Shown one piece after another: positions 11,473 to 33,869 of a stretch of DNA of 34,287 nt; position 1 is the first letter of the stretch, and the number at the start of each line of letters is the position of its first letter. The stretch covers positions 1 through 34,287 of the forward strand of contig JAUXDH010000008.1 of the NCBI GenBank assembly GCA_030618545.1, given 5' to 3'. The position numbers were made by a program, and so were the translations under genes. This DNA is from Chlorobiota bacterium (GTDB lineage Bacteria > Bacteroidota > Bacteroidia > Bacteroidales > F082). The notes beneath the pieces are model-generated. The model ran no database searches. It was given only the letters and a program-made list of their open reading frames with translations, and was not told where the DNA came from.

Positions 11473-11508
11473 CAGTATTTCTTATAACTATTTATTTACA
11501 AATTCCTG

Positions 11509-11529: not shown

Positions 11530-11546
11530 TGATTAAAATATAGAAC

Positions 11547-12360: not shown

Positions 12361-12402
12361 ACTCTTTTTTAACCAGGTATTACATTGAACTTACCTTAAG
12401 AA

Positions 12403-12430: not shown

Positions 12431-12543
12431 ATTATCTGATTTATATCATAAAAAATAATTCAAACTTTCCCTTAACTTATTTATATTTAATCTAAATTAG
12501 CGCCCCAAAAATCAGACTGTTTTTATTACCTTTTTACCTATTT

Positions 12544-13338: not shown

Positions 13339-13341
13339 AAT

Positions 13342-14985: not shown

Positions 14986-15024
14986 CTTCATCACACAGAT
15001 CGTTAATACTGAAACTGAAAAAAT

Positions 15025-15654: not shown

Positions 15655-15658
15655 CGAC

Positions 15659-15973: not shown

Positions 15974-15982
15974 AACACACTT

Positions 15983-16888: not shown

Positions 16889-16919
16889 ACCCCTCCCTGG
16901 AAGGGCCAGGTGTGAGTCA

Positions 16920-18077: not shown

Positions 18078-18311
18078 ATGGCTACTTTCACCAGTACATT
18101 GCCGGATGAATTGCTGCATCATTTAAGCGAGCAATCCCAAAAGCTCTCTCTTCCAAAGAATAAGATTATAGAGAAAGCATTAAGAATCTATCTCGATCAA
18201 CTTAACCGTGCAGAATATGTTAAATCTTACAAGAAGGCTTCAAAGGATGAAGATATTTTGACAATCGCTGAAGAAGGAATGGAAGATTACTTCAAACAAC
18301 TGGAAGAATGA
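18078..18311 (+). CDS. Ribbon-helix-helix (CopG-type) antitoxin
   Basis: A 77-residue acidic-tailed protein. Residues 1-45 read as a ribbon-helix-helix DNA-binding fold: strand TFTSTLPDELL, helix, the turn SLPKNKIIEKAL, second helix to YLDQL. The C-terminal 30 residues are rich in Lys and Glu and probably wrap and neutralise the toxin. Its stop overlaps the toxin start (ATGA, 18308-18311), the usual coupling in type II modules. It would also repress its own promoter through the palindrome just upstream. Confidence 0.82.
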   Translation: MATFTSTLPDELLHHLSEQSQKLSLPKNKIIEKALRIYLDQLNRAEYVKSYKKASKDEDILTIAEEGMEDYFKQLEE

Positions 18312-18640
18312 AACAGGCAGAGATTTGGATGGCTGACCTGAATCCCGTTAAAGGAAGCGAACAAGCAGGTTTCAGACCGGTGGTGATTATCAGTGGCAAT
18401 CTCCTGAATGCCTATCTTCCTGTCGCAATCATTTGCCCGATAACTACTAAAATAAAAAACTATAAAGGGAACCTAATCCTGAAACCCAATCCTGAAAATG
18501 GTCTGGAAAGCACTTCTGAAGTCCTGGTGTTTCATGTACGTTCCGTATCCAAAGACAGGCTGGTGAAAAAAATCGGTGAGATAACCGCAGTCGAACTTCA
18601 GCGTTTGAAAACAGGATTGGATGAGATGTTGAGATATTAA
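18308..18640 (+). CDS. MazF/PemK-family endoribonuclease toxin
   Basis: A 110-residue protein. It begins KQAEIWMADLNPVKGSEQAGFRPVVIIS, the MazF/PemK fold signature (G-D/E-x-W-x-A-D-L-x-P-x-x-G-x-E-x-x-x-x-RPV). A Thr in CPITTKIK lies at the usual catalytic position, and HVRSVSKDRL follows. MazF enzymes cleave single-stranded RNA at short sequences and arrest growth when free of antitoxin. Length is complete and the key Arg and Thr are present, so it should be active. The module sits between the respiratory genes and the secreted-protein locus and may be a transferred cassette; no flanking transposon is visible. Confidence 0.88.
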   Translation: MKQAEIWMADLNPVKGSEQAGFRPVVIISGNLLNAYLPVAIICPITTKIKNYKGNLILKPNPENGLESTSEVLVFHVRSVSKDRLVKKIGEITAVELQRLKTGLDEMLRY

Positions 18641-18786: not shown

Positions 18787-21700
18787 ATGAAAAAAATTAC
18801 CCTCCTCGCATTAGCAATTGCTGCATTTTGTGTTTTCGGATACACCCAATCGCAACAGCAACAAACAAGTAAGGACTATGCCAGTTATCCCTACTGGATA
18901 GAGATGATGCAGGATCAGGAAGCCAATTACTTTGAAACTGTTGAGGCTTTCAATGCCTATTGGAAAACCCGTGAGATTACACGCGGATCAGGTTACAATC
19001 CTTTTAAGCGCTGGGAGTGGCACATGAAGTATAAAATCAATCCTGACGGATCAAGGATAGCTGTTGATTATGAACGTGAAGTTTATCTTGAATTCATGTC
19101 GAAACAGGTTGATAGATCTGATTTTGAAGGAAACTGGGAAAACCTCGGCCCGATAGATCTACCAGACTCACCCCATGATTTCTGGGGAAATGGCAGGCTC
19201 AACGCCATTGCTTTCCATCCTACTGATCATGACATCATTTATGTTGGTGCGCCATCCGGAGGTTTGTGGGTTAGCGAAGACAGGGGCCAAAGCTGGGACA
19301 TCCTCACCGATGATCAGCCTACACTGGGCGTTTCCTCCATTGTTGTTGACTATAACGATCCTGATATCATTTACATCGGAAGTGGTGACAGAGATGCTGG
19401 TGATGCCCAGGGACTGGGGGTGTTCAAAAGCACAGATGGAGGAGCAAGCTGGGTAAGGAAAAACACCGGCATGGGGAACGTTAGTGTTGGAAGAATGATC
19501 CAGGATCCTGATGATGCGGATGTGTTGTATGCTGCTGCAAGCGGTGGAATCTTCAAATCCACCGATGCTGCTGAAAGCTGGATCAACACAAAGACCGGGA
19601 CCATGAAAGAAATCGTTTTCAAACCCGGCGATCCATCGGTACTTTATGCCTCGGCCACCGGGAAATTTTATCGTTCTGCGGATAACGGAATTAACTGGCA
19701 AAAGATCACTACCGGTCTGCCCGGGAACGCAGCAAGGGCAGTAATTGCCGTCTCAGAAGCCAGTCCTGAATATGTCTATTTCTTCGCGACCTCTCAATCA
19801 TCTTTTCTGGGGCTTTATCGGTCGACTGATGGAGGCGCCACATTTTCCCTGAGATCCAATTCACCCAATGTCATGGGGTGGGCCTGCAATGGCGGTAGCG
19901 GGGGTCAGGCATGGTACGACCTGGATATGGCTGCAGATCCTTTGAATGAAGAGATTATTTATGCCGGAGGAATCAATTGCTGGAAATCTGCCGACGGCGG
20001 ATTAACCTGGACCATGTCATCCAACCAGGTTGGGGACTGCGGAGCGGAAGCAGTTCACGCTGACCTGCATGTGCTTGAATGGAATCCGGTTGATGGACGC
20101 CTGTACGTTGGCAATGATGGCGGTGTGTGGTGGACAGATGATGGTGGTGTTGAATGGAACAGGATCACCGACGGCCTCGCTATTGGCCAGCAATACAAAA
20201 TGGGCCAGAGTAAACTGGTAAGCAAGCACACGATCACAGGATACCAGGACAATGGCATTTCCACCTATACCGCTGACGGATGGGTACAGTCGGATATGTA
20301 TGCCGATGGAATGGAGTGCCAGATGGACAACACAGATACTACCTTAAGCTATGGATGCATGCAATTTGGCAGAATGACAAGGATAGTTAACGATAAAAGT
20401 GTCAAATACATAGCAGGCCAGGGAATAGGTGGTATCAATGAAAGCGGTAGTTGGGTAACCCCTTTCACCCAGCATGAGTACGACAACAATATCATGTTTA
20501 TCGGTTATGATAACATCTGGCGTACAAGAAACCTGTTGGATTATTCACCGGCCTGGACAAATATAACTAATAACGCCAGCGCCGGTAAAATAAGGGTAGT
20601 TGAGCATTCACCGGCAGATGAAAACCTCTTCTATTTTGTTCCCGGAACCCAATTATTCAGATCAGACGACATCCTCGCGGACAATCCCTCTTACACTAAT
20701 CTCAAGAACTATTTACCCAATTCCGGCGCGCCAACTGACATTGAAGCCCATCCCTGGAACCCTGAAATTGTTTTCATAACCCAAAACTGGAAAGTTTACC
20801 GGTCGGAGGACAAGGGTGTAAGCTGGACCGATATTACCGGAAACCTGCCCAATGTAAGCATGAATGACATAGCCTATTATGACCGAAATGGAATTGAAGG
20901 ATTGTATGTAGGAACAAACATTGGCGTTTTCTTTAAAGATGAATACATGGATGAATGGGCCATGTTCTCAGAAGGTTTGCCTGCCGCGATAGATGTTAGT
21001 GAAATCGAGATTTATCTTCACCCGGATGATCCGTCCCAGGATATGATCAGGGCTTCTTCCTATGGCAGGGGACTATGGGAATCATCTCCTTATTACTACG
21101 ATTTGAATGCGGATTTCTATACTTCTGACACCCTTATCCCTACCGGTTGCAGCCTGGATTTCTACGATACATCCATTGGATATCCTCATAACTGGCAATG
21201 GACATTTGAAGGTGGCTCACCGGCAACTTCTACAGAACAAAACCCTGTAAATATTCAATACCCGGAGGAAGGTGTTTTTGAAGTCAGCCTTACTGTTACC
21301 AATCCGTCAGGAAGTGATACCAAAACAATAAGCGGCTATATTAAAGTTGAAGAAGGATTGCTTCCCATTGTTGAATTCAACAGCAGCCAAACCGCATTTT
21401 GCGCACCGGGCATCGTAGAATTCCATGATGAATCGCAGGGCTGCCCGACAGGCTGGTTATGGAAAGTGGAACCTGACGGCTACTCCTTCTGGGATGATAC
21501 CGGTGAAAACTCTCAGAACCCTGTTATCAAGTTCTACGAAAGCGTTCCCTATACGATAACTCTCAATGTGACCAATGCTTCAGGCAGCAATTCAGTAACA
21601 AAAGTTGATTACATACAGGCAGGAGGATATGTCCCTTATTACGAAGAAACATTTGAAGAGAACACTTTCAATGCCGTGGATTGGACAATAGAAAATCCGG

Positions 21701-22446
21701 ATAACTCCCTCTGCTGGGAACTTCATGAGATTGGCGGCACCACCCCGGAGAATACTGCTGCCGGTGTTGATTTCTCAGAATACCAGTCCCTTGGTGAACG
21801 CGACAGATTGATCTCCCCTCCTTTCAACCTGGAAGGCATGGAATCTGCCTGGCTTGAATTCCAACATGCCTATGCGAAGAAATGGGATGATAATTCCGAC
21901 TCGTTGATAGTGCTGGTTTCAGGTGATTGCGGCAATTCATGGACAAGGGTGTTCGCAGGTGGTGAAGATGGCAGCGGCAATTTTGCCACCCATGAACAAA
22001 CGAATGATTTTTGGCCTGAGGTGGAAACTGACTGGTGTATGGCCGGCTGGGGAGCTTCATGCATCGCCATCAACCTGGATCAATGGACTGGAAAAACGGA
22101 TGTAAGAGTCGCATTTGAGAGTTACTGTTATTTCGGTAATCCTTTGTTTATAGATAATGTATCAATAAGTCAGTATGTGGGACAGTTAGAGTTTAACGAG
22201 CAAAAAGATGAACTATTGGTTTATCCGAATCCCGCGAATCAATCTTTGAAAGTGGTCATACCAGATGGGCTGATTATTGAGCATTTGGAACTGATAAATC
22301 ATCTTGGCCAAACGGTATTCAGCCAAAAGGTTTTACCCGGTGAGAAGATGGAGATCAACATACAAAATAACTGGATCAACGGCATTTACTATTTGAGGGC
22401 AACCGGCAATAACAATTTAATCACCAAAAAAGTGATTCTCTTTTAG
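18787..22446 (+). CDS. Giant secreted Asp-box propeller protein with PKD domains and T9SS sorting domain (copy 1)
   Basis: A 1219-residue cargo protein. A signal peptide covers residues 1-20. A conserved N-terminal segment, YPYWIEMMQDQEANYFETVE, ends in YNPFKRWEW. Residues 120-765 hold at least eight Asp-boxes (for example SEDRGQSW, STDGGASW, SADNGINW, SADGGLTW, SEDKGVSW), typical of sortilin/BNR beta-propellers. Two PKD domains follow (about 767-857 and 858-945), then a jelly-roll domain (about 946-1131) with GERDRLISPPFNL and DWCMAGWGASC. The T9SS type A sorting domain (1138-1219) begins LLVYPNPANQSL and ends KKVILF. The protein should reach the surface or medium through T9SS. Propellers of this type bind proteins or glycans; no catalytic residues are identifiable. 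I start at ATG 18787 for the signal peptide. Confidence 0.9.
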   Translation: MKKITLLALAIAAFCVFGYTQSQQQQTSKDYASYPYWIEMMQDQEANYFETVEAFNAYWKTREITRGSGYNPFKRWEWHMKYKINPDGSRIAVDYEREVYLEFMSKQVDRSDFEGNWENLGPIDLPDSPHDFWGNGRLNAIAFHPTDHDIIYVGAPSGGLWVSEDRGQSWDILTDDQPTLGVSSIVVDYNDPDIIYIGSGDRDAGDAQGLGVFKSTDGGASWVRKNTGMGNVSVGRMIQDPDDADVLYAAASGGIFKSTDAAESWINTKTGTMKEIVFKPGDPSVLYASATGKFYRSADNGINWQKITTGLPGNAARAVIAVSEASPEYVYFFATSQSSFLGLYRSTDGGATFSLRSNSPNVMGWACNGGSGGQAWYDLDMAADPLNEEIIYAGGINCWKSADGGLTWTMSSNQVGDCGAEAVHADLHVLEWNPVDGRLYVGNDGGVWWTDDGGVEWNRITDGLAIGQQYKMGQSKLVSKHTITGYQDNGISTYTADGWVQSDMYADGMECQMDNTDTTLSYGCMQFGRMTRIVNDKSVKYIAGQGIGGINESGSWVTPFTQHEYDNNIMFIGYDNIWRTRNLLDYSPAWTNITNNASAGKIRVVEHSPADENLFYFVPGTQLFRSDDILADNPSYTNLKNYLPNSGAPTDIEAHPWNPEIVFITQNWKVYRSEDKGVSWTDITGNLPNVSMNDIAYYDRNGIEGLYVGTNIGVFFKDEYMDEWAMFSEGLPAAIDVSEIEIYLHPDDPSQDMIRASSYGRGLWESSPYYYDLNADFYTSDTLIPTGCSLDFYDTSIGYPHNWQWTFEGGSPATSTEQNPVNIQYPEEGVFEVSLTVTNPSGSDTKTISGYIKVEEGLLPIVEFNSSQTAFCAPGIVEFHDESQGCPTGWLWKVEPDGYSFWDDTGENSQNPVIKFYESVPYTITLNVTNASGSNSVTKVDYIQAGGYVPYYEETFEENTFNAVDWTIENPDNSLCWELHEIGGTTPENTAAGVDFSEYQSLGERDRLISPPFNLEGMESAWLEFQHAYAKKWDDNSDSLIVLVSGDCGNSWTRVFAGGEDGSGNFATHEQTNDFWPEVETDWCMAGWGASCIAINLDQWTGKTDVRVAFESYCYFGNPLFIDNVSISQYVGQLEFNEQKDELLVYPNPANQSLKVVIPDGLIIEHLELINHLGQTVFSQKVLPGEKMEINIQNNWINGIYYLRATGNNNLITKKVILF

Positions 22447-22461
22447 TCATCAATAAAGCGA

Positions 22462-22485
22462 GGTCTAACGTCTTTTTGTCAGACC
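22462..22485 (+). terminator. Hairpin after the first giant gene
   Basis: GGTCTAAC and GTCAGACC form an 8-bp stem with one mismatch around GTCTTTTT. It lies 15 bases after the stop. The T-run is in the loop rather than after the stem, so termination is uncertain. Confidence 0.35.
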
Positions 22486-22574
22486 CTGCGCCCTCTGCGT
22501 ATCCATTGCAGCCATTACGGTTAATAATTTTAAATCTAACCGCAAGGAGCGCAAAGAATTCGCAATGAACGCAG
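22486..22574. repeat. CTGCG / CGCAAAG inverted intergenic repeat
   Basis: CTGCGCCCTCTGCGTA on the left and CGCAAGGAGCGCAAAG plus TTCGCAATGAACGCAG on the right form a loose palindrome around an AT-rich centre. It is the same style as the repeats at 41-80 and 12318-12360. Confidence 0.5.
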
Positions 22575-22696
22575 TGAGTCCTAAGCCTTACACCATGAAT
22601 GAGGAGGTTTTATTGCTACATTCCCAACTTGCTAATTTATAACCATTCTAACAATTATTTCCCTTTAGTTGCTGTCATAAAATCACAAACGAATAG

Positions 22697-22704
22697 TACA
22701 TTTG
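22697..22704 (+). promoter_or_regulatory. -7 box for the second giant gene
   Basis: TACATTTG, identical to the -7 box of the preceding giant gene, lies 28 bases before the ATG at 22733, the same distance as in copy 1. No clear -33 box is at the usual distance. Confidence 0.45.
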
Positions 22705-22732
22705 CCGATCGATTTTTTTTAATGTGCAAAAA

Positions 22733-25700
22733 ATGAAAAAGTTTACATTACTCGCCGTTCTGTTAACGGCTTTTTTTATTGGTGGTTTTTCACAAGCCAC
22801 TTACCAGTTGGATGAAAGTAAAGATTACTCCGGCTACCCTTACTGGATAGAAATGATGCAGGATGAAGAAGCCAATTTCTATGCCACTGTCGAAGCCTTC
22901 AACAGGTATTGGGAATACAGGGAAATCACTCCGGGATCTGGCTATAAGCCATTCAAAAGGTGGGAATACCACTGGAGCACCCGTATCAAACCGGATGGAA
23001 CACGCCGACCGGCCGATGAGGCAATAAAATCCTATTTTGATTTTCTAGCGACAAACACTTCACGTGAAAATGAATTCGAAGGTGACTGGACCAATCTTGG
23101 CCCGATCGAACAACCTGGAAATGCAGGAACTGGACAGCCAAATGGCAACGGACGTGTTAATGCCATCGCCTTCCACCCCACCGATGTGGATATTGTTTAT
23201 GTGGGTTCTCCGGCAGGAGGATTATGGATCACCTACGATGGTGGAGAAGAATGGATCAGTTACACAGACAACCTGCCAACACTTGGCGTATCTTCAATTG
23301 CGATAGACTACACAGACCCTGATATAGTTTTCATCGGTACCGGTGACAGAGATGCCGGAGATGCTCCCGGAATGGGAATTATGAAAAGTGAGGACGGTGG
23401 AATTACTTTTGAATTCTCTAATGATGGAATGGGCAATGCAACCGTTGGACGCCTGATCATGCATCCTGATTTTCACCTGCACATGATTGCAGCTACCGGC
23501 AACGGAATCTATAAAACCACGGATGGAGGACAAAGCTGGAGCAATAAAAAAAGTGGAAGTTTTAAAGACGTTGTATATCATGTAAATGATCCGGATATCC
23601 TATTCGCCACAGCTTCAGGTAATTTTTACAGATCGACTGATGAAGGAGATAACTGGATTCAAATTACTTCAGGCTTAAGCAGTGCATCAAGAGGAGTGAT
23701 CGGTGTTTCGGAAGCTGACGCTGATGTGGTGTATTTCCATACTGTACAGGGAAGCGTTTACGCTGCCACTTACAGGTCGGATGATGCCGGACTCACGTTC
23801 ACCGAAAAGGCCACCTCTCCCAACATCATGAGTTGGGGATGCAATGGCGGATCAGGCGGACAGGGATGGTACGATCTCGATGTAGCCGTTGATCCAACTA
23901 ACGCAGATGTGTTGTACTCAGGCGGAGTCAATGCCTGGAAATCCACCAATGGCGCAGCAAGCTGGAGCATCAACTCACACTGGTACGGCGACTGCGGCAG
24001 ACCTGCTGTTCATGCCGATTGCCATGTACTTGAATACAACCCGCTAAACGGAAGGCTGTATGCAGGTAATGATGGTGGAGTTTACTGCACAGATGATGGG
24101 GGAACCACCTGGACCGAGCTGACGAGTGGACTTGCCATTTCTCAGGTGTATAAAATCGGGCAAGCAAAAACCAATCCGGATAAAGTCATCAACGGCTACC
24201 AGGACAACGGCACTGCTACTTACCTGGGCAAAGAAGATGGCTGGCTTACCGTGATGGGCGGCGATGGTATGGACTGCGCATACGACCACCAGGATGATCG
24301 CTATGCTTACGGAGAATATTACAACGGCGCGGGTATCTCAAGAATCTTTAACAACAACAACCAGGGTTCCATATCCAATGGTATTGGAGAATCCGGAGCA
24401 TGGGTAACACCTATTGCTCTGGATGTAACAGATCCTGTAACCATGTATGTTGGAATGAAAAATATATGGGTAAGCCACAACATCAGGAGTGGTAGTGTGC
24501 AATGGAAAAAGATTTCCGACCTGGGAAGTTCCAACTGCGCCGTAATTGAACAAAGTGAAGAAGATAACAATGTTTTTTACGTGGCCCATTCGAGCCAAAC
24601 TTTGTGGAGGACTGATAATCTTTTAGACAATAATCCCCAATGGATTAACCTTTCTGCTAACCTGCCCACAAGTGGGGTACCAACAGATCTCGAAACACAT
24701 CCCGGAAATCCGGATATCCTTTACATGACTTTGAACTACAAAGTATTTAAGTCGGAAGACCGTGGTTTAAGCTGGGAAGATATCACCCTGAACCTGCCTG
24801 CAGCCAGTACAAATACCATTGAATATTACAAAAATACCCGTGATGGCCTGTACGTTGGGACTGACGCGGGAATCTATTACAAGGACAACGATATGGATGA
24901 GTGGGCGCTGTTTTCGGAAGGTTTCCCATTGGCTGCCGATGTTACTGAAATTGAAGTTTACTATGATCCTGAGGGACCTTCAGGAGACCTGGTAAGGACA
25001 TCAACTTATGGACGCGGACTCTGGTCCTCACCGGCATTCTACTCTTCGCCAACCTCAGATTTTATGGCAAACGAAACCCAGATACCTGCCGGCTGCGCAA
25101 TCGATTTCTTCGATCTGTCAGGGGGAGTGCCACATGAATGGGAATGGACTTTTGAGGGTGCCGGCACAACATCGTCCTCAGAACGAAATCCAACAGGGAT
25201 CACTTATGAAGAAGAAGGAACTTTTGCTGTTATACTCACTGTGACAAATCCTGCCGGTAATGATACGAAAACAATTACTGAATACATTACGGTAAGTGAT
25301 GCCATGATGCCATTGGTCAACTTCATGAGCCCGGACAGGGTTTTCTGTGCACCCGGAATTGCGAGCTTCTATGAAGATTCGCAGGGATGTCCAACAGATT
25401 GGCTATGGGAATTTGAACCATCAAACGTTTCTTTCCTTGAAGGAACTGACGAAAACTCACCCAATCCGGTTGTGAAGTTTTACAATGACGAGCCTTATAC
25501 GGTAAGTCTAACGGTCACTAATTCAGCAGGCAGCACCACTGAGACCAAAGACGATTACATTCAGGCGGGAGGATATGCTCCATACTACTCTGAAACATTC
25601 GATCTCAACTCTCTCAGCATCTCTGGTTGGGAAGTTGAAAATCCTGATGGAAGCGTTACCTGGGGATTGTATGAAGTGGGTGGAACAGAACCAGGTTCAA

Positions 25701-26395
25701 AAGCAGCAGGTATCGATTTCCGCGATTACCAGGTGATTGGCGAACGCGATCGTCTTATTTCACCTCCATTCAACCTGACCGGTATGAGTTCGGCCTGGCT
25801 TGAATTTCAGCATGCCTATGCCGAAAGATGGGAGAATAAAACCGACTCACTTATAGTGTATGTCTCTGAAGATTGTGGCGTTTCATGGACACGCATATAC
25901 GCAACCGGTGAGGATGGAAATGGTAGTTTTGCCACCCACGAGCCTGTAGAAGATTTCTGGCCGGAAGTGGAATCAGATTGGTGCATGTCGGGTTGGGGCG
26001 CTTCCTGTATCGCACTTAATGTGAGTAGCTGGGCAGGAAATGATGGTGTCAGGTTCGCATTTGAAACTTACAGTCATTTTGGCAATCCTATCTTCATCGA
26101 CAATGTTACCATCAGCCAGTTCGTCGGCCAGTATGAGCCGGATGCAAGAGCTGTTGGATTGATGGTTTATCCGAATCCAAACAACGGAGTATTCAAAGTT
26201 TCTCTTCAGGAGGGTCATCAGTACGATAATCTTCAGATCGTGAATCATCTCGGACAACTTGTTCATCAGCAAAGCTTATCAGATACTGACGTTAACATTG
26301 AAGTTAATCCTGAGAATAAACTTACTTCCGGAATTTATTATTTGAGGTTGAACGGTTGGGGAGAATCAGTATCAGAAAAATTAGTTCTATACTAA
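22733..26395 (+). CDS. Giant secreted Asp-box propeller protein with PKD domains and T9SS sorting domain (copy 2)
   Basis: A 1220-residue paralogue of the preceding protein with the same architecture throughout. It has a signal peptide (MKKFTLLAVLLTAFFIGGFSQ), the conserved YPYWIEMMQDEEANFYATVE segment, a propeller of eight Asp-boxes (TYDGGEEW, TTDGGQSW, STDEGDNW, SDDAGLTF, TDDGGTTW, SEDRGLSW and variants), two PKD domains (about 769-947), a jelly-roll (about 948-1131) and a T9SS sorting domain (LMVYPNPNNGVF to SEKLVLY). The two copies can be aligned nearly end to end, with many substitutions and few gaps, so the tandem duplication is old. I use ATG at 22733; an in-frame GTG at 22724 would only add three residues before the signal. 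Function is unknown; surface binding or adhesion is the usual guess. Confidence 0.9.
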   Translation: MKKFTLLAVLLTAFFIGGFSQATYQLDESKDYSGYPYWIEMMQDEEANFYATVEAFNRYWEYREITPGSGYKPFKRWEYHWSTRIKPDGTRRPADEAIKSYFDFLATNTSRENEFEGDWTNLGPIEQPGNAGTGQPNGNGRVNAIAFHPTDVDIVYVGSPAGGLWITYDGGEEWISYTDNLPTLGVSSIAIDYTDPDIVFIGTGDRDAGDAPGMGIMKSEDGGITFEFSNDGMGNATVGRLIMHPDFHLHMIAATGNGIYKTTDGGQSWSNKKSGSFKDVVYHVNDPDILFATASGNFYRSTDEGDNWIQITSGLSSASRGVIGVSEADADVVYFHTVQGSVYAATYRSDDAGLTFTEKATSPNIMSWGCNGGSGGQGWYDLDVAVDPTNADVLYSGGVNAWKSTNGAASWSINSHWYGDCGRPAVHADCHVLEYNPLNGRLYAGNDGGVYCTDDGGTTWTELTSGLAISQVYKIGQAKTNPDKVINGYQDNGTATYLGKEDGWLTVMGGDGMDCAYDHQDDRYAYGEYYNGAGISRIFNNNNQGSISNGIGESGAWVTPIALDVTDPVTMYVGMKNIWVSHNIRSGSVQWKKISDLGSSNCAVIEQSEEDNNVFYVAHSSQTLWRTDNLLDNNPQWINLSANLPTSGVPTDLETHPGNPDILYMTLNYKVFKSEDRGLSWEDITLNLPAASTNTIEYYKNTRDGLYVGTDAGIYYKDNDMDEWALFSEGFPLAADVTEIEVYYDPEGPSGDLVRTSTYGRGLWSSPAFYSSPTSDFMANETQIPAGCAIDFFDLSGGVPHEWEWTFEGAGTTSSSERNPTGITYEEEGTFAVILTVTNPAGNDTKTITEYITVSDAMMPLVNFMSPDRVFCAPGIASFYEDSQGCPTDWLWEFEPSNVSFLEGTDENSPNPVVKFYNDEPYTVSLTVTNSAGSTTETKDDYIQAGGYAPYYSETFDLNSLSISGWEVENPDGSVTWGLYEVGGTEPGSKAAGIDFRDYQVIGERDRLISPPFNLTGMSSAWLEFQHAYAERWENKTDSLIVYVSEDCGVSWTRIYATGEDGNGSFATHEPVEDFWPEVESDWCMSGWGASCIALNVSSWAGNDGVRFAFETYSHFGNPIFIDNVTISQFVGQYEPDARAVGLMVYPNPNNGVFKVSLQEGHQYDNLQIVNHLGQLVHQQSLSDTDVNIEVNPENKLTSGIYYLRLNGWGESVSEKLVLY

Positions 26396-26578
26396 AGCAC
26401 CGTCAGAACGTATATTAAAAAGTGTAAATAATCGATCCCTATAAAAGTGCGGAGAACAGAAGAATAATGGGCTATCCTGACATTAAACATTTGATTGCCT
26501 GGTGAGCTCATTAATATATTTTAAACAACCTTAACAGAACTGCTCAGGGTTTTTAGGCTGACTAACGATTATTAACAG

Positions 26579-26586
26579 TACTTTTG
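26579..26586 (+). promoter_or_regulatory. -7 box for the third giant gene
   Basis: TACTTTTG lies 72 bases before the ATG at 26659, within the 263-bp gap after copy 2. The spacer to a TTTTTAG further upstream is too long, so the -33 box is unclear. Nothing else is recognised in this gap. Confidence 0.4.
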
Positions 26587-26658
26587 CAGGTTTTATAATG
26601 AACCGATTTCTCGGGGAATTTATTAAATACAATTAAATCTAACCTTAAAATTATTTAA

Positions 26659-29571
26659 ATGAGAAGTTTTTATGTTGCTATTCTTGGTCTCTTAATGGTG
26701 GCCATGATGCCTTTTGCTGACCTTATCGGACAGGCACAAAAGCCCACCAGAGTGATCAAGGCTGCCTATTTTGATGTTACAAAACCTTTAAGGGACATTA
26801 CCCCAATTCAACCCGGTCTCCGCGACAGGTCATGGAAGAATGACGTTATCGGGAACAAGTTTGAAGAAAATGAAGAAGTAAATGCAAATTTTACTTATAC
26901 CGGACCGGATGCTGCTTTACAGACTACCGGTTCCGGAATGCGTGCTGCTGACCCAACCGTTCACCAAAACTTTGAAGGAGTTAATAATATAAGCGGAGTT
27001 GCACCACCTGATACTGACGGGGATGTTGGACCCGACCATTACATGCAAATGGTAAACCTTGCCTTTGCTATTTACGATAAAGAAGGCGCCCTGCTATATG
27101 GTCCTGCTGACAACAGCACATTGTGGGATGGTTTTATTGGCCCATGGACAGGTACGAACGACGGTGACCCAATTGTTCTATATGATGAACAAGCCGACAG
27201 GTGGCTGGCAAGCCAGTTTGCGCTTCCGAGCAGCAATGGCCCCTGGTATGAATTGATAGCCATTTCAGCCACAGGTGACCCAATGGGCGAATGGTACCGT
27301 TATGCGTTCGAGTTTGACAGGATGCCTGATTACCCTAAGTTTGGTATATGGCCCGACGGATATTATTTTACGATCAGACAGTTTATTCCCTACGATGGCA
27401 TTGGAGTTTGCATTGCTGATCGTGATGCCATGCTCGAAGGCGATCCTGATGCAGAATTGATTTTCTTTGATATGGTAAATGCTTATGACGGACTCCTCCC
27501 TGCTGATGCTGATGGTGAAATGATGCCGCCCGAAGGCGCACCCGGTATTATACTTGGCTTGAGTTCCAGTACAACCCTTCGTATGTGGGAAGTAACCGTT
27601 GACTGGGAAAATACAGCTAATTCGACCTTGCAGGCTAAGCAGTCATTTCCTGTGGAATCTTTTAACACCAGTAATATTAATGTCAGGCAGCCCGGAACCG
27701 GCCAGTTACTGGATGTGTTGCCCTGGGCTATGAAATACAGGATACAATACCGGAACTTTGGTGATCATGAAGCACTGGTGGCCTGTCATGACGTAAATGC
27801 CGGTGCTACCCGTGCCGGAATCAGGTGGTATGAATTTCGGCAGGATGAAGATAATTCGTGGTATGTTTACCAGCAGGGAACCTATGCGCCTGATGATGGC
27901 GAAAGTCGTTGGATGGGAAGTATCGCAATGAATGCAAACGGGGACATAGCCCTTGGTTATTCTGTTTCCAGTTCGAGCACATATCCATCCATTAGAGTAG
28001 CAGGGCAGACCGCCGGAGCGCCTGAAGGGCTTGGAATACTCGATATTTCAGAAACAGAGATCTTTACCGGATCAAACTCGCAAACCGGCGTAAATCGCTG
28101 GGGTGATTATTCCAGCATGAGGATTGATCCGAGCGACCAAAATACATTCTGGTACACTACGGAATACTCTAAAGGTGGATGGAACTGGAGAACAAGAATC
28201 GCTTCCTTCGGTTTTGCACAGGAACCTGTTTCTGATTTCAGCTCCAATGAAATTATTATTCCTGTGGGAGAAGATGTAAACTTTACTGACCTTACCTCCG
28301 GAATTCCAACAGCATGGGACTGGACCTTCAATGGAGGTGATCCGGAAACTTCAGATGTTAAAAATCCACAGGAAATATTTTACAATACCGAAGGTTCATT
28401 TGATGTTAAACTGGTTTCTTCAAACGACCTTGGCATCGACAGTGTTCTTAAAGAAGAATTTATTACTGCCAGCACTACTATCCTGCCGGATATAGATTTT
28501 GATGTCAGTAATGATTTTGTTTGCCTTGGAGAAGAGGTGGAATTTGAAGACCTGACCACGCATGTGCCGATTCAATGGCAGTGGGAATTTGAACCCTCTA
28601 CTGTGCAATTTATTGATGGTACCGATCAAAACAGCCAGAATCCAAAGGTTATCTTTACGGAAGCAGCCCTTTATACTGTTACCCTCACTGCATGGAACCT
28701 GAATGGTGAGTCGTCTCTGACCAGGGAAGATTATATCGCAGCCGGTGGTTATATGCCTTATTACAGAGAAACATTTGAACAAAACAGCTTTAAGGATGCC
28801 TCCTGGACTGTCGAAAATCCTGATGGCGATGTTACCTGGGAATTATATGAAACTGCCGGAACCAACCCCGGTAATTTCTCTGCCGGTATCGATTTCAGCA
28901 TTTACCAGAAGATTGGCGAAAGAGACCGGCTGATCTCTCCTTCGTTCAATTTAACAGGCATGAGTTCTGCTGTACTTGAATTCGAGCATGCTTATTCCAA
29001 ACTTCATGATAATTTCACCGATTCATTGCTCATCTATGTAGCAAAAGACTGTAATGACGATTGGGTAAGGATAGCTTCATTTGGTGAAGACGGCAGTGGC
29101 AACTTCGCTACCCAGGAGCCGATGGAAGATTTCTGGCCACAATCATCTGATGATTGGTGCCTGGCAGGATGGGGAGCAGGTTGCTTCGCAGTGGATCTTA
29201 CAGAATGGACCGGAGAATCAGGCGTGCGTATCGCCTTCGAATCTTATTCCTACTTTGGTAATCCAATGTTTGTAGATAATGTATCCATCAGCCAGTTTGT
29301 AGGTACGGTAGAAAATGAACTGGAATCTGAAGAAGTCAGTGTGTATCCAAATCCTGCAAACGGAACATTCAATGTTGTTCTGCCCGAAGGTTCTGGTTAT
29401 ACCGGGTTGAATATTGTCAACTTCCTGGGACAATCCGTTTATTCGGCAAACCTGTCCGAAACTGACAGGAACGTATCGATTAATCCTGAGGCCAACTGGA
29501 CCAAGGGAATCTATTTTGTGCGTTTGACAGGAAATGGTATTTCAACAACTAAAAAAATAATCCTGAATTAG
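26659..29571 (+). CDS. Giant secreted protein with unassigned head, PKD domains, jelly-roll and T9SS sorting domain (head type B, copy 1)
   Basis: A 970-residue cargo protein. A signal peptide ends near residue 25 (DLIGQAQ). The head (about 75-520) differs from that of the two upstream proteins and lacks canonical Asp-boxes. It has a conserved opening, GVAPPDTDGDVGPDHYMQMVN, and closes with NRWGDYSSMRIDPSDQNTFW; alternating hydrophobic strands and aromatic turns suggest a beta-propeller. From residue 522 on it matches the chassis of the neighbours: PKD 1 (522-606), PKD 2 (607-696, with VCLGEEVEF), jelly-roll (697-880, with GERDRLISPSFNL and GWGAGCFAV), then the T9SS type A domain (889-970, VSVYPNPANGTF to KKIILN). 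I cannot name the head family or its ligand. Confidence 0.88.
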   Translation: MRSFYVAILGLLMVAMMPFADLIGQAQKPTRVIKAAYFDVTKPLRDITPIQPGLRDRSWKNDVIGNKFEENEEVNANFTYTGPDAALQTTGSGMRAADPTVHQNFEGVNNISGVAPPDTDGDVGPDHYMQMVNLAFAIYDKEGALLYGPADNSTLWDGFIGPWTGTNDGDPIVLYDEQADRWLASQFALPSSNGPWYELIAISATGDPMGEWYRYAFEFDRMPDYPKFGIWPDGYYFTIRQFIPYDGIGVCIADRDAMLEGDPDAELIFFDMVNAYDGLLPADADGEMMPPEGAPGIILGLSSSTTLRMWEVTVDWENTANSTLQAKQSFPVESFNTSNINVRQPGTGQLLDVLPWAMKYRIQYRNFGDHEALVACHDVNAGATRAGIRWYEFRQDEDNSWYVYQQGTYAPDDGESRWMGSIAMNANGDIALGYSVSSSSTYPSIRVAGQTAGAPEGLGILDISETEIFTGSNSQTGVNRWGDYSSMRIDPSDQNTFWYTTEYSKGGWNWRTRIASFGFAQEPVSDFSSNEIIIPVGEDVNFTDLTSGIPTAWDWTFNGGDPETSDVKNPQEIFYNTEGSFDVKLVSSNDLGIDSVLKEEFITASTTILPDIDFDVSNDFVCLGEEVEFEDLTTHVPIQWQWEFEPSTVQFIDGTDQNSQNPKVIFTEAALYTVTLTAWNLNGESSLTREDYIAAGGYMPYYRETFEQNSFKDASWTVENPDGDVTWELYETAGTNPGNFSAGIDFSIYQKIGERDRLISPSFNLTGMSSAVLEFEHAYSKLHDNFTDSLLIYVAKDCNDDWVRIASFGEDGSGNFATQEPMEDFWPQSSDDWCLAGWGAGCFAVDLTEWTGESGVRIAFESYSYFGNPMFVDNVSISQFVGTVENELESEEVSVYPNPANGTFNVVLPEGSGYTGLNIVNFLGQSVYSANLSETDRNVSINPEANWTKGIYFVRLTGNGISTTKKIILN

Positions 29572-29611
29572 TCATCAGGATAAACAAATAGTAAAAAGCT
29601 GTTCGATCGCT

Positions 29612-29781
29612 AAGCACCAACGGTGCGTAAATCAATAGCCCCGAGCGTATGCCTGCCAAAGCGAAGCGGCAGACAGGCAGCTCGGGGTTTTTATCAGAAA
29701 TAGTCAGCAAGCCCCATCGGGGTGAAATCATTAATCCCAAACATAACGTTCGTCATATTTTATTTCATGTTCATTTAAAAG
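29612..29781. repeat. IS200/IS605-type 3'-end repeat, copy 1
   Basis: It matches the segment at 34070-34210 over its whole length apart from point changes and one 30-nt insertion. Shared landmarks in order: AAGCACCAACGGTGCG, a GCCCCGAG...CTCGGGG hairpin, a CCCCATCGGGG hairpin, then ATTAATCCC and ATAACGTTCGTCATAT. Read on the minus strand, the distal part encodes a transposase C-terminus (see the separate entry). Confidence 0.75.
29650..29679. mobile_element. 30-nt palindromic insertion nested in a hairpin loop
   Basis: These 30 bases, beginning TGCCTGCC and ending GGCAGACAGGCA, interrupt the loop of the GCCCCGAG/CTCGGGG hairpin. The copy at 34070 has AGTAG where this copy has CGTA, the insert, then G. 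The insert is itself a near palindrome and so could be a minimal dispersed element. Confidence 0.6.
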
Positions 29782-29802
29782 AGCTCGGTTTTGATTTCGC
29801 AC
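29731..29802 (-). pseudogene. Remnant of IS200/IS605-type (Y1) transposase C-terminus, copy 1
   Basis: The minus strand reads ...ALLNEHEIKYDERYVWD and a stop at 29731-29733. The last nine residues, KYDERYVWD, are identical to the remnant at 34160. This matches the C-terminal end of small IS200/IS605-type transposases as I remember it (...EYxxxLKxFEIEYDEKYLW). Upstream sequence on this strand loses similarity after about 20 codons, so only the tail remains. Confidence 0.6.
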
Positions 29803-29835
29803 CTTTGGCGCTTTTCCATACTTTGATATATTCGT

Positions 29836-29893
29836 CTCAGGGCTTAACGCCCAGAGCTATTGATGTCACCCCGTTGGGGCTCTCTCAATTCAA
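29836..29893. repeat. Further palindromic repeat fragment
   Basis: CTCAGGGC-TTAAC-style arms (CTCAGGGC and GCCCAGAG) are followed by CTATTGATGTCACCCCGTTGGGGCT. The CCCCGTTGGGG hairpin resembles the CCCCATCGGGG hairpin of the two larger repeats. It is probably another piece of the same family. Confidence 0.45.
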
Positions 29894-29911
29894 CTGATTC
29901 AACCGTGAGAA

Positions 29912-29957
29912 GCCACAAATGCCCGAATGAAAGACGAATGATTCGTGCATTCGTGGC
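29912..29957. repeat. Inverted repeat of the GCCACAAA/TTCGTGGC type
   Basis: Seventeen-base arms at 29912-29928 and 29941-29957 pair with two mismatches, the same arm length and the same GCCAC...GTGGC ends as the repeat at 1584-1630. Confidence 0.55.
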
Positions 29958-30009
29958 TCGATATTTTCCCGGAACACCATCCTCAAAGCGCCAATCTAAT
30001 TCCGGTTAT

Positions 30010-30135
30010 ACCAATTGTTTTTCATAATGCGTTATAGATATTTATGAAAATTACAATGGTTAATGCCGATATAAATTTGAAGTGGCTTTAGGAGTGTAGC
30101 GAACTAAAGGCGCATTTCAAATTATAATCGGTATT
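30010..30135. repeat. Two adjacent hairpins, possible miniature element
   Basis: Hairpin 1: ACCAATTGTTTTTCATAA (30010-30027) against TTATGAAAATTACAATGGT (30042-30060). Hairpin 2: AATGCCGATATAAATTTGAA from 30062 against TTCAAATTATAATCGGTATT ending at 30135, with an inner CTTTAG/CTAAAG stem. The pair is AT-rich, has no coding frame, and lies just upstream of the last giant gene. It could be a miniature inverted-repeat element. Confidence 0.5.
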
Positions 30136-30155
30136 ATTCCTCCATTCCAATTCAT

Positions 30156-30163
30156 TATATTTG
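30156..30163 (+). promoter_or_regulatory. -7 box for the fourth giant gene
   Basis: TATATTTG matches TAnnTTTG and lies 53 bases before the ATG at 30217. No clear -33 box is seen. It follows directly after the paired hairpins, so the repeat may have supplied or disturbed upstream promoter sequence. Confidence 0.4.
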
Positions 30164-30216
30164 TAAATCCGATCGGGCCCTCTCTTTCGGGATATCTTCC
30201 AATTAAAAAAACCTTC

Positions 30217-33120
30217 ATGAAAAAGCTTTTCTTTATCGTTAGCATACTAACCCTTGGATTTGTCAATCAAATGATTTCCCAGCATCTGCAGCCTGAGCGT
30301 GGTATAGCTCACAAGCACGCGACAGTTAAGGTATCCGATATCGAGCAGACAGCCGGTGATGGTGAAATTAAACTCAAAACGCCAAATCCCCACTGGCAGC
30401 CCCCCGATTGGAATTATGACAGGGAGAAGGTAATTTACCGGCAACCGGAGGCAGAATTGCACCAGCGATCAATTGGGATAAGAGAAGCCTCTCCCCTGCC
30501 CGACACCACATTTGCCGGTCTGGTTGACAACAATACTTCTATCCCACCGGATGTGAACGGAGCCGCGGGTCCTGACAACCTGATGCAGACATTGAACACT
30601 GAGGTAAGGATTTCCGACAAGGATGGCCAGCCCCTCTTTACGACCACACTCTCGGCTTTCTGGAGTGACTTGCCGGGATCGGGGAGCACATTTGATCCCA
30701 GGATCGTATATGACCCCTATCTCGATTGTTGGATCATGGTCACACCCAGCGGCTCAGGGGTTCAGTCAAAAATCTTCTTCGCCATCAGCACATCTACTGA
30801 CCCACTCGGCGATTGGAATATGTACTGGTTTGATCCAGACACCAGCAACCAGACCTGGTTTGATTATCCTAACCTGGGATTCAATAAAAACTGGATCAGC
30901 ATTGGCGGCATCCAGCGCGATTCACAGTTTGATGCCATCGACTATGTGGTTTTCGCCATTGATAAAATGGCTGCTTATAATGGGGAAGACAATCCCACAG
31001 TCAGCAGATTCACTACCCAGTTGGGATCAGCTATTGTACCTTCATTTACTTACGATCCGCAATTGGAAGAACTGTACCTGATTTCTACAGGTGATGGAAA
31101 TGATGAGGGTTATGGATATGTAAACCTGTTTAAGCTTAGCGGCCCTGTTAACGAACCCACCCTCGAAATGTTGGGCGCTGCAGGTGTGCCTGAGCCATGG
31201 GAGAACTGGTCATACGAATACCATGGCGATTTTCTGCCACAACTGGGAAGTGAAACCCTCAATTCAGTTGATGCCAGGATGCATACCATGATCACCAGAA
31301 ACAACAAGCTTTGGGCAGTTCACCACATTTACCTTCCGGCAGACGACCCTGAAAGGTGCGCGGTGCAATGGTGGTGCTTCGATACCACGGGTGTTATCCT
31401 GGAGAGAGACAGAATCGACGATCCGGATAATGGCTTTTCGTTTGCATACCCCAGCATAGCTGTCAATGCCAATGAAGATATAATGATCGGTCACGGTGTT
31501 TTCTCAAGCTCTCAGTATGCAGGTGCAGGATATTCGTTCAAGGCTTATTATGATGATGCAAACACAACCAGGGATTTTTATGAATACAAAGCCGGCCTGG
31601 CACCCTACTACAAAACCTATGGCGGCGACAGGAACCGCTGGGGAGACTATTCTGCTGTATTTGTGGATCCGGATCATGATGTCAATTTCTGGGCCATGCA
31701 CGAATACGCTGAACTCCCGGGCACACAGGACCAGTGGGGTACCTGGTGGGCGTACTACCGGCCTTCGTTTCCTCCCCAGGCTGATTTTGTATCGGATGAG
31801 ATACTCATCCCGGTAGGTGAAACAGTAAACTTTACCGACCTTACCCTGGGAATCCCTGAAACATGGAGCTGGACTTTTGAAGGTGCGATACCGGAAGTGT
31901 CTGATGTGCAAAATCCACAGGACATTCTTTATGAATCTGACGGCGTTTTTGACGTCACCTTAATTGTTTCCAACGAATTGGGAACAGATACCATCATCAG
32001 GGAAGGATGGATTACAGCAAGCTCAACCATATTACCTGAAGTCAACTTTGAAGCTGACTTCACAGTTCCATGCACCGAGGATACGGTTTCATTCTCTGAT
32101 CTTACCAAATATTCCCCGATCCAGTGGAACTGGGAATTTGAGCCATCAACCGTTACATTTGTGAATGGCACAGATGAAAGCAGCCGGAACCCACAGCTTG
32201 TCTTTGATGAGGCTGGTAGCTATACCGTCACGCTTAGCTGTTGGAATCTAAATGGGAGTTCAGATCAGACAAAACCGGATATGATCGCGGCAGGAGGTTA
32301 TGAGCCCTTTTACAGAGAAACATTTGAGAGCGCAACTTTCAAAAGCGAGGACTGGACCATCGAAAATCCGGATAAAGATGTCACCTGGGAATTTTTTGAA
32401 ACAGGGGGAACTGCACCTGGCCTGATCTCCGCGGGAATAGATTTTAGCAAGTATTTTAAGATAGGGGAAAAGGACCGTCTGATCTCACCACTTTTTAATC
32501 TCGAAAACCTGTCTGCAGCCTACCTGCAATTCCAGCATGCTTATGCCAAACGCCACGAAGACTTCACTGACTCTCTGCTGGTGTACATCTCTGATGATTG
32601 TGGAATTACCTGGACTAAAGTATTTTTTGGCGGTGAAGATGGAAGCGGCAACTTTGCAACCCATGAGCCCGCGGACGGGTTCTGGCCATCAATCAGCAGC
32701 GACTGGTGCATGTGGGGCTGGGGAGCTTCCTGCATCAGCATTGATTTATCACCATGGAGCGGCAAATCAAACATAAGGATCGCGTTTGAATCCTGGAGCG
32801 CTTTCGGCAACCCTATGTTTATCGATAACATCGAGATCGGGCAGTTTGTTGGACTGGAGGACATGGGAACCCACGATGAGGAGGTATTGATCTATCCAAA
32901 TCCGGCTGATGATGGTTTCAATATTTTGCTAACAATTCCCGGCAAGTTTCGTAAAGCAGAATTGGTAAACCACCTGGGTCAATTAGTTTATTCCAGGGTA
33001 CTGGACACTTCGCGAAAGCAAATGAGAATCCCAAGGGGAAAGGATTGGGCAACAGGTGTGTATTTCCTTACCCTCTCCGGAAGGGATGTCAGGGTAGTCA
33101 AAAAGATCAGTTTTTATTAA
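30217..33120 (+). CDS. Giant secreted protein with unassigned head, PKD domains, jelly-roll and T9SS sorting domain (head type B, copy 2)
   Basis: A 967-residue relative of the preceding protein. A signal peptide ends near NQMISQ (residue 22). The head (about 95-515) has the type B opening, NTSIPPDVNGAAGPDNLMQTLN, and ending, NRWGDYSAVFVDPDHDVNFW. The chassis follows: PKD 1 (518-603, QADFVSDEILIPVGETVNF), PKD 2 (604-693), jelly-roll (694-878, with GEKDRLISPLFNL and WGWGASCISI), and a T9SS sorting domain (888-967, VLIYPNPADDGF to VKKISFY). The heads of the two type B proteins are clearly more divergent from each other than the chassis parts are. It is last in the secreted-protein row, 35 bases before rsmE. 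Its role is unknown; extracellular binding is the most likely guess. Confidence 0.88.
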   Translation: MKKLFFIVSILTLGFVNQMISQHLQPERGIAHKHATVKVSDIEQTAGDGEIKLKTPNPHWQPPDWNYDREKVIYRQPEAELHQRSIGIREASPLPDTTFAGLVDNNTSIPPDVNGAAGPDNLMQTLNTEVRISDKDGQPLFTTTLSAFWSDLPGSGSTFDPRIVYDPYLDCWIMVTPSGSGVQSKIFFAISTSTDPLGDWNMYWFDPDTSNQTWFDYPNLGFNKNWISIGGIQRDSQFDAIDYVVFAIDKMAAYNGEDNPTVSRFTTQLGSAIVPSFTYDPQLEELYLISTGDGNDEGYGYVNLFKLSGPVNEPTLEMLGAAGVPEPWENWSYEYHGDFLPQLGSETLNSVDARMHTMITRNNKLWAVHHIYLPADDPERCAVQWWCFDTTGVILERDRIDDPDNGFSFAYPSIAVNANEDIMIGHGVFSSSQYAGAGYSFKAYYDDANTTRDFYEYKAGLAPYYKTYGGDRNRWGDYSAVFVDPDHDVNFWAMHEYAELPGTQDQWGTWWAYYRPSFPPQADFVSDEILIPVGETVNFTDLTLGIPETWSWTFEGAIPEVSDVQNPQDILYESDGVFDVTLIVSNELGTDTIIREGWITASSTILPEVNFEADFTVPCTEDTVSFSDLTKYSPIQWNWEFEPSTVTFVNGTDESSRNPQLVFDEAGSYTVTLSCWNLNGSSDQTKPDMIAAGGYEPFYRETFESATFKSEDWTIENPDKDVTWEFFETGGTAPGLISAGIDFSKYFKIGEKDRLISPLFNLENLSAAYLQFQHAYAKRHEDFTDSLLVYISDDCGITWTKVFFGGEDGSGNFATHEPADGFWPSISSDWCMWGWGASCISIDLSPWSGKSNIRIAFESWSAFGNPMFIDNIEIGQFVGLEDMGTHDEEVLIYPNPADDGFNILLTIPGKFRKAELVNHLGQLVYSRVLDTSRKQMRIPRGKDWATGVYFLTLSGRDVRVVKKISFY

Positions 33121-33155: not shown

Positions 33156-33869
33156 ATGAACCTTTTTTACGCTGCTGATATTACCGATGGTTTATACACT
33201 TTAGAGAGTGCGGAATCCAGGCACCTCGTTAAGGTACTCAGAAAAACAGAAGGCGACACCATTCGATTCACTGATGGTAAGGGAACCTTTTTTGACTGCA
33301 AACTGATTACCGCCGATCCAGGGGCCTGTGAACTTGAAGTTTTCGACAAATTCGAAGGTGATGGCAGGCGTGATTTCATTATTCACCTGGCTGTCGCACC
33401 AACGAAAAACATCAATCGTTTTGAGTGGTTCCTGGAAAAAGCTACAGAGATTGGTATCGACAGGATCACCCCTTTTATCAGCAGGCACTCCGAGCGCAGA
33501 GTGGTTAAAACAGAAAGGCTCAATAAAGTGCTCATCTCCGCGATGAAACAATCACTCAAATCGAAGTTGCCGCAGTTAGACGAAATAACGACTTTTGATG
33601 AGCTACTGAAATTGGAGTCCGGAGGTGACAAATACATCGCTTATGTGGATGATTCCATTGAGGCGGAGCTGTCCAGAGAATATTCTCCTGGAAAAGATGT
33701 GTTCATCCTCATTGGACCGGAAGGTGATTTTGATTCTGAGGAAGTAGCAAAGGCAAAAACCTCAGGGTTCAAACCGGTAAGGCTTGGCCCATCAAGATTG
33801 CGTACAGAAACAGCTGCTGTTGTGGCCTGCCATACCATCAACCTGATGAATTTGCCGGCCGGAAGTTAA
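33156..33869 (+). CDS. rsmE: 16S rRNA (uracil1498-N3)-methyltransferase RsmE
   Basis: A 237-residue SPOUT-class enzyme that methylates U1498 of 16S rRNA using S-adenosylmethionine. An N-terminal PUA-like domain (residues 1-70, with ESRHLVKVLRKTEGD) precedes the knotted catalytic domain. Motifs: FEWFLEKATEIGIDRITPF, the RSERSV-like HSERRVVK, LIGPEGDFDSEE for SAM binding, and LGPSRLRTETAAVVA at the C-terminal knot. Length and motifs are complete. It is a housekeeping gene, unrelated in function to the secreted proteins upstream, and marks a return to conserved chromosome. The ATG at 33149 is in another frame; 33156 gives the expected MNLFYA start. Confidence 0.95.
   Translation: MNLFYAADITDGLYTLESAESRHLVKVLRKTEGDTIRFTDGKGTFFDCKLITADPGACELEVFDKFEGDGRRDFIIHLAVAPTKNINRFEWFLEKATEIGIDRITPFISRHSERRVVKTERLNKVLISAMKQSLKSKLPQLDEITTFDELLKLESGGDKYIAYVDDSIEAELSREYSPGKDVFILIGPEGDFDSEEVAKAKTSGFKPVRLGPSRLRTETAAVVACHTINLMNLPAGS

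Follow-up and report, generated by a model that had tools for sequence, protein, structure and literature searches.

The window, by which we mean the whole stretch of 34,287 nucleotides analysed here, carries four adjacent genes encoding cargo of the type IX secretion system (T9SS). All four, A1, A2, B1 and B2, end in a common back half of about 446 residues composed of two PKD domains, a choice-of-anchor J jelly roll and a type A sorting domain, as a preliminary description of this DNA had claimed (Table 1). In A1 and A2 this back half is a mosaic: A-type PKD domains are followed by a jelly roll and a sorting domain of B type. We hold it somewhat probable that the cluster is an expanded, family-specific A-B cargo unit, exported by the T9SS and remodelled by duplication and domain exchange.

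Table 1. Features of the cargo cluster and of its downstream neighbour (positions in the window)
Feature	Position	Strand	Length	Assignment
A1 gene	18787..22446	+	1219 aa	Asp-box propeller head of second A lineage; A-type PKDs; B-type jelly roll and sorting domain
A1 head	18934..21105	+		A-head profile match
A1 PKD1-PKD2, A-type	21109..21603	+		profile comparison
A1 putative exchange seam (A-type to B-type)	21590..21710	+		over repeated linker 21598-21656
A1 jelly roll (choice-of-anchor J), B-type	21622..22182	+
A1 T9SS sorting domain	22219..22437	+
A2 gene	22733..26395	+	1220 aa	A head grouping with same-genus A genes; A-type PKDs; B-type jelly roll and sorting domain
A2 head	22886..25051	+		A-head profile match
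A2 PKD1-PKD2, A-type	25055..25549	+		profile comparison
A2 putative exchange seam	25540..25670	+		over repeated linker 25544-25602
A2 jelly roll, B-type	25568..26128	+
A2 T9SS sorting domain	26165..26386	+
B1 gene	26659..29571	+	970 aa	predicted B-I seven-bladed propeller head; B-type back half
B1 head	26923..28230	+		AlphaFold2 model, pLDDT 93.7
B1 jelly roll	28744..29304	+
B1 T9SS sorting domain	29341..29562	+
B2 gene	30217..33120	+	967 aa	predicted B-II seven-bladed propeller head; B-type back half
B2 head	30487..31779	+		B-II profile match
B2 jelly roll	32293..32853	+
B2 T9SS sorting domain	32890..33108	+
RNA methyltransferase, presumably of the RsmE kind	33156..33869	+		PF04452 and PUA_4; common downstream neighbour, outside the system

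The source genome (2.77 Mb in 225 contigs, 88% complete), in which the window lies on contig 144, contains 98 sorting-domain matches at E≤0.001, the majority above cut-off. The four cluster proteins are a minor share of this large T9SS secretome.

The shared back half and its mosaic form in A1 and A2

Aligned over their full length, the last ~446 residues of A1, A2 and B2 are respectively 49%, 52% and 55% identical to those of B1, and the A1-B1 match (E=5e-145) lies far above chance. Two PKD stretches are recognized by Pfam and NCBIfam in each of the four proteins, all of which match Por_Secre_tail (PF18962) and TIGR04183 above both curated cut-offs. The segment that links PKD2 to the sorting domain (CTD) is assigned a jelly-roll fold from its sequence, by an NCBIfam match and by the preliminary description: choice-of-anchor J (NF038128) scores 31.9 bits in A1, against a cut-off of 30, and matches 26 of 33 aligned family members at E≤1, A1 being the one for which the cut-off score is known. 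A profile search of the PDB with the jelly roll returned a single match (E 0.24), and Cleaved_Adhesin gave no Pfam match at E≤10 in the three jelly rolls scanned, a result that is weak as an absence. Alignment A7 comprised 33 of 57 rows, and alignment A5 comprised 23 of 24, the first gene of L093 being omitted.

The origin of each back-half segment was scored by profile log-odds over 134 distinct genes; exact duplicates were dropped and, for each row, profile rows at least 80% identical to it were excluded. Positive values denote A type and negative values B type. In A1, the scores are +40.3 for PKD1 and +45.8 for PKD2, then -54.8/-77.1 over the jelly roll and -37.6 over the CTD; the corresponding values in A2 are +36.6, +48.8, -45.3/-58.8 and -40.8. 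Among the 52 other A-headed genes, 51 are A-type over PKDs and jelly roll, the exception, in genome G016, being negative at PKD2 and jelly roll. None of the 78 B genes is A-type in PKDs or jelly roll, and the back halves that carry neither an A nor a B head (C172 and an M6-headed gene, see below) score near zero. The sign flips near back-half residues 160-200, where the four genes share a linker whose copies are 71-78% identical in DNA.

Phylogenies built from genes of at least 700 aa with a back-half match of at least 150 bits agree with this partition. In the tree of the whole back half (87 rows), one clade (support 100/93) unites 32 of 35 A rows, while the other contains all 51 B rows (100/91) and the three remaining A rows, namely window A1, window A2 and the A gene of G016; A1 and A2 are sisters (100/100). 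The PKD part alone places A1 and A2 with the A genes (support 94.9), and the jelly roll with the CTD places them within the B genes, the AU test against holding A together giving p=0.0157, a value that is optimistic because the seam was chosen after the tree had been seen. For the whole back half, a constraint keeping the 34 A rows in one group was not rejected by the AU test (p=0.258); mosaic structure would blunt such a test, which is not decisive. Placing the A1 PKDs beside those A genes that share the head lineage of A1 gave p=0.0514, in an unfair test from which the co-grouping L182, L192 and L193 were omitted.

The p value of 0.258 would suit a view in which the B-type jelly roll of A1 and A2 is a retained ancestral state or a convergence, with no exchange at all. 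We judge this improbable, for the same-genus A genes of G001, G002 and G005 have A-type jelly rolls, that of G004 is A-type where covered (its jelly roll is cut by the contig end), and the A2 head clusters with the heads of G001, G002 and G005. It is harder still to credit that the A-front, B-back genes are an assembly artefact of a metagenome bin, even one of 225 contigs and 88% completeness: the junction occurs in two separate genes with open frames, whose jelly rolls are 66% alike in amino acids, a divergence that makes a mis-join unlikely.

Domain exchange from a B gene thus remains the preferred reading. In the tree of jelly roll and CTD, the rows nearest to B1 are A1 (0.99) and A2 (1.09, tied with a B-I gene of G002), and the B rows nearest to A1 are this same G002 gene (0.98) and B1 (0.99). 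Such distances are in keeping with a B1-like gene having been the donor in a conversion, but point to no particular one. The exchange would be old, as judged from jelly-roll identities of 66% between A1 and A2 and 64% between A2 and B1, so that no near-identical tract is left to prove gene conversion.

Away from the cluster, an A-headed gene of G016 (L087, contig G016:C5, 2726-6331) has a back half at the base of the B side and a head grouping with G044 and G046 genes that bear A-type back halves. This may represent a second exchange, here with no clear mosaic.

Two kinds of predicted propeller and the divergence of the heads

An Asp-box propeller head had been proposed for two of the four genes and is upheld in A1 and A2, where Sortilin-Vps10 (PF15902) matches partial stretches at 70.5 and 80.5 bits (cut-off 33); BNR scores of 26.6 and 23.8 bits fall under the cut-off of 27. 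The assignment is made by sequence. Sortilin/VPS10 itself consists of a ten-bladed propeller followed by a 10CC module. Against the PDB, the best match of the A-head profile is the GH74 xyloglucanase 2cn3 (E 7.9e-25, a whole-sequence value from four aligned stretches of which one passes alone), followed by 2cn2 (1.1e-24). The column that holds Asp in 2cn2 and Ala in 2cn3, which we take to be the D70A mutant of the GH74 catalytic base, D70 of CtXgh74A, is Pro in the A profile, this P106 being invariant in the A family. A proline at this column makes GH74 catalysis by A heads unlikely, and GH74 activity was set aside as a probable function on the assumed role of the base. The A head probably comprises two propellers lacking that base. 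In the head tree, A1 groups with G026 and G046 genes and A2 with the same-genus G001, G005 and G002, which places them in different A lineages.

Pfam recognizes nothing in the B heads at E≤10. The B-I head profile found no match among PDB sequences, and B1 searched alone gave chance-level matches in its head. Their fold was predicted with AlphaFold2. The B1 head, modelled from 74 family rows (alignment A3, 74 of 75 rows, the long-branch L098 row being omitted), matches CylK (Z 24.7, 330 aligned, 3.6 Å) and YncE (Z 24.5, 295 aligned, 3.2 Å), with PLL-type lectins and integrin alpha at Z ~22. In the full-length B2 model (pLDDT 80.5, pTM 0.58), the top match of the head is again CylK (Z 23.9, 338 aligned, 3.6 Å). 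Both B heads are predicted to be seven-bladed propellers, the blade count coming from the fold matches and the strand pattern. The earlier statement that the cluster carries two different kinds of head therefore holds in that A and B heads differ, but since the models make B heads propellers as well, these are two kinds of propeller. Many propellers lie within a few Z units of the top match and neither a lectin nor an enzyme stands clearly ahead of the others, so no function can be deduced for the B heads.

The ranking of 2cn3 and 2cn2 for the A heads (E 7.9e-25, 1.1e-24) and of CylK for both B heads (Z 24.7, 23.9) could be taken to mean that the heads are enzymes, a GH74-like glycosidase in A and a lyase or CylK-like enzyme in B, and that the cluster is a saccharide-degradation unit. 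We regard this as unlikely. The GH74 Asp column is Pro in the A profile, the Z score of CylK is tied with those of YncE and others within 1-2 units, and no SusC/SusD-like family is found among the 19 neighbouring ORFs scanned.

It had been noted that, in the type B pair, heads diverge more than the back half, and this is true as an observation: B1 and B2 are 24% identical in the head, 61% in PKD1, 56% in PKD2, 62% in the jelly roll and 34% in the CTD. The respective values between A1 and A2 are 52, 55, 58, 66 and 37%. The tree of B heads resolves two clades, B-I (21 rows including B1) and B-II (30 rows including B2), separated by ~6.5 changes per column. Mean head identity is 0.635 within B-I and 0.64 within B-II, against 0.257 between them (630 pairs). 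The 24% identity between the B1 and B2 heads thus reflects their membership of two old head families.

The preliminary description had taken this divergence to suggest that the heads are selected for new binding specificities while the export platform stays fixed. The low head identity of B1 and B2 beside 56-62% for PKDs and jelly roll is what such positive selection would predict, yet the explanation appears very improbable. Orthologous heads are as conserved as the jelly roll or more so: mean identities for head and jelly roll are 0.535 and 0.523 in A, 0.635 and 0.61 in B-I, and 0.64 and 0.523 in B-II (the class means exclude the truncated L067), and the head is the more conserved in 393 of 404 B-II pairs, 152 of 200 B-I pairs and 307 of 556 A pairs, so that the two are about equal in A. 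Median end branches are shorter in the heads (A 0.16, B 0.12) than in the whole back half (0.32), although the row sets differ. This contrast sits in the jelly roll with its sorting domain (0.32), PKDs (0.18) being barely faster than A heads. The B1 head is moreover closer to the head of a C71 protein, borne on another tail (39%), than to that of B2 (27%). Accelerated head evolution was rejected as the cause of the B1-B2 divergence in view of the high within-class head identities. Nor is the platform fixed, since A1 and A2 carry a B-type jelly roll and sorting domain.

The trees also give heads and back halves different histories; the shared history that would have counted against modularity is not borne out. 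In the B-type tree, from which six near-identical rows and window A1 and A2 were omitted, the back halves of B-I and B-II genes intermingle and the deepest B branches carry B-II heads. The two head families differ in range. B-I heads have at least 532 relatives among GTDB species genomes, and the 80 loci taken from these belong to Bacteroidota, Ignavibacteriota and bins labelled Chlorobiota. Their 96 B-I ORFs include 34 with a full back half, 49 without and 13 that are cut; two of the 49 (L111, L118) are truncated back-half copies, which the B-I head tree counts as back half. The same loci hold nine B-II ORFs, eight with a full back half and one truncated. Strong B-II heads (E≤1e-130) occur in 50 of 149 genomes, every one of the same family, and weak matches (1e-20 to 1e-24) in nine more. 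Where B-I heads sit on other tails, the five examples scanned show, among others, different PKD arrays, GEVED and Ig-like domains. In the tree of 98 distinct B-I heads, 43 sit on the cluster-type back half and 47 on other tails, with eight undecided. There the tail has switched type four times; well-supported branches force three of the switches, and one placement links long branches. Most simply read, the cluster-type back half exchanged its B-II head for a B-I head drawn from a shared pool, presumably in that direction.

The source genome itself encodes a distant B-I-type head (L028, contig G000:C71, 659-3589) that is 39% identical to that of B1. The protein has a GEVED match, as well as CARDB and sorting-domain matches under cut-off.

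The A-B pair, its neighbourhood and a proposed mode of action

A profile of the source genome's five back halves was searched against 149 relatives, source genome included. Parts of it are recognized at E≤0.001 in 146 of these genomes, and the whole is strongly matched (E<1e-100) in 62 of 90 from the same family (0 of 16 in one genus) and in 5 of the 59 that belong to the order's other families. In a phylum-wide sample of 296 genomes, with at most five candidates per genome scored, none of the 295 others carries the whole back half at E≤1e-60, the sole genome past this value being that of the window. A ubiquitous whole back half, the other possibility held against the proposed system, was accordingly rejected, yet its pieces are widespread among the relatives.

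A same-strand A gene lies directly upstream of B-II in 34 of the 50 genomes with strong B-II heads, the window being included although B1 intervenes. Of these cases, 29 were seen in loci (the B gene of G002 is broken) and five were read from coordinates (G017, G022, G051, G069 and G074, with broken B genes in G069 and G074). B-II occurs without an adjoining A in seven genomes (G003, G019, G026, G032, G044, G059, G061), and in the remaining nine a contig end or the tables leave adjacency undetermined. The loci compared contain 26 adjacent A-B pairs, 25 with B-II and one formed by A2 of the window and B-I; B-A pairs number zero. The A-B gaps measure 1-280 bp, with a median of 73.5 bp and 12 of 26 at or below 50 bp. 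Such short spacing suggests an operon, and A and B are probably co-transcribed; in the window, where gaps among the four genes are 263-645 bp, an operon is less sure. An RsmE-type gene, recognized by PF04452 and PUA_4, directly follows the last B in 18 loci by hand count. Other genes take this place in, for example, L064-L066, L068-L073, L077 and L080, and in two genomes of other families (L184, L181) A stands immediately before RsmE, B being absent there. It therefore seems that the A-B pair is inherited as a unit, frequently at a single location, and that it is enlarged to A-A-B-B in the window.

Several features of the surrounding DNA may be recorded. The gap between B1 and B2 (29572-30216), at 645 bp the longest in the cluster, holds no credible gene; an 82-aa ORF within it has no relative in the pooled loci. 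Upstream, at 18078-18640, a PemK/MazF-type toxin gene (110 aa, PF02452 96.4 bits) is overlapped at its start by a 77-aa ORF, a likely toxin-antitoxin pair between an oxidase operon and A1, with one similar protein (40%) in locus L059. Two terminal oxidases adjoin at 5184-17780: a first operon for a cbb3 oxidase (COX1 and FixO in a single 715-aa ORF, FixP, FixG, FixH) is followed by a second haem-copper oxidase operon with COX1, 3, 4, 2 and a UbiA-family gene, CtaB-like by position.

The modularity proposed in the preliminary description, common back half and varied heads, extends to relatives, as seen in the B-I heads on other tails and in an M6-type head. The latter belongs to G050 (contig C220), where the same kind of back half stands behind an M6-type peptidase (PF05547, 22.6 bits against a cut-off of 22) with an HEMFH motif and an in-frame stop. 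In the source genome, contig C172 has a back half at 40% identity, its head cut off by the contig end. The back half has hence carried at least four heads, A, B-I, B-II and M6.

The T9SS export route is present in the source genome, which encodes a full SprA/Sov (TIGR04189, 2527.6 bits) and PorU-type sortases. Hydrophobic N-termini, where a signal peptide would lie, are visible by eye in the four translations, as is a helix at residues 2-20 of the B2 model. Two full-length PorU-type sortases lie in tandem (NF033707, 1339.2 and 1215.2 bits; G000:C24:1722-8858, L212 and L213), perhaps with two attachment specificities. According to published work, T9SS sorting domains bind PorV, are cut by PorU and are attached to surface polysaccharide (PMC11969387).

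From these elements a mode of action can be proposed. An A cargo with an Asp-box head and a B cargo with a single seven-bladed propeller, probably co-transcribed, would leave the cell via the T9SS by means of their C-terminal domains. By analogy with type A cargo, PorU would cut them and fix them to surface polysaccharide, and they would be held on the surface or released from it. The PKD-PKD-jelly-roll part would serve as a stalk, perhaps itself adhesive, and the propeller would face outward to bind its target, most likely glycan or matrix. Glycan is a first and weak guess, prompted by propeller lectins and GH74-like propellers, which count among the kinds most similar to these heads. Tandem duplication combined with domain exchange may have produced the four-gene form. 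One B copy would have received a B-I head, in place of its former head, from a pool spread across Bacteroidota and Ignavibacteriota, and both A genes would have taken over a B-type jelly roll and sorting domain, with the conserved PKD2/jelly-roll linker as seam, probably when a B gene of the cluster acted as donor in gene conversion.

A more speculative idea, to which we give little credence, is that the jelly roll and sorting domain form a matching code by which the products of A and B bind each other or a common surface partner. If true, recombination at the conserved linker would make the tails of co-expressed genes match again, A1, A2 and the B genes of the window having been brought to one tail type, and the A-B pair would be a two-part surface complex with exchangeable heads and tails kept alike.

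Relation to known systems

The cluster is modular T9SS cargo, a known kind. Its value is that of a natural experiment in the assembly of such cargo by module exchange, with a mapped seam and 134 genes nearly all from one uncultured Bacteroidota family. The analysis also defines a widespread propeller family without Pfam match (B-I, at least 532 relatives), next to B-II, found in one family only among 149 relatives, and a conserved A-B pair whose joint function is directly testable. No description of the A-B pair or of the B heads was found in the open-access literature searched.

Each domain of the back half is already known from T9SS cargo that combines PKD, choice-of-anchor J and type A sorting domains; unlike these in general, the whole back half is strong in one family plus 5 of 59 other-family genomes and in 0 of 295 beyond. 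Like GH74 xyloglucanase and sortilin-type Asp-box propellers, to which they are similar in sequence, A heads are Asp-box propellers; unlike GH74, they have Pro at the column of the base Asp, whose role we assume, and show no sign of being an enzyme. The archaeal S-layer YVTN propeller-PKD protein (PDB 1l0q) has the same order of propeller then PKD, with a Foldseek E of 4.5e-10 to the B2 model and a sequence match to the PKD part of A1 and B1. It differs in that B heads have no sequence match to it (B-I profile searched) and in that its system has no T9SS.

Choice-of-anchor J occurs in putative adhesins among the T9SS cargo of Prevotella intermedia (PMC11969387). For gingipains and related adhesin cargo, domain rearrangement and allelic exchange are described (PMC5266723). 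Among the closest parallels is the gingipain/HagA family of Porphyromonas gingivalis (RgpA, Kgp, HagA, PG0411), in which adhesin domains and CTD recur behind differing heads. The heads there are proteases or adhesin arrays, whereas those of the cluster are propellers, and exchange is seen there between strains, here between species of a family.
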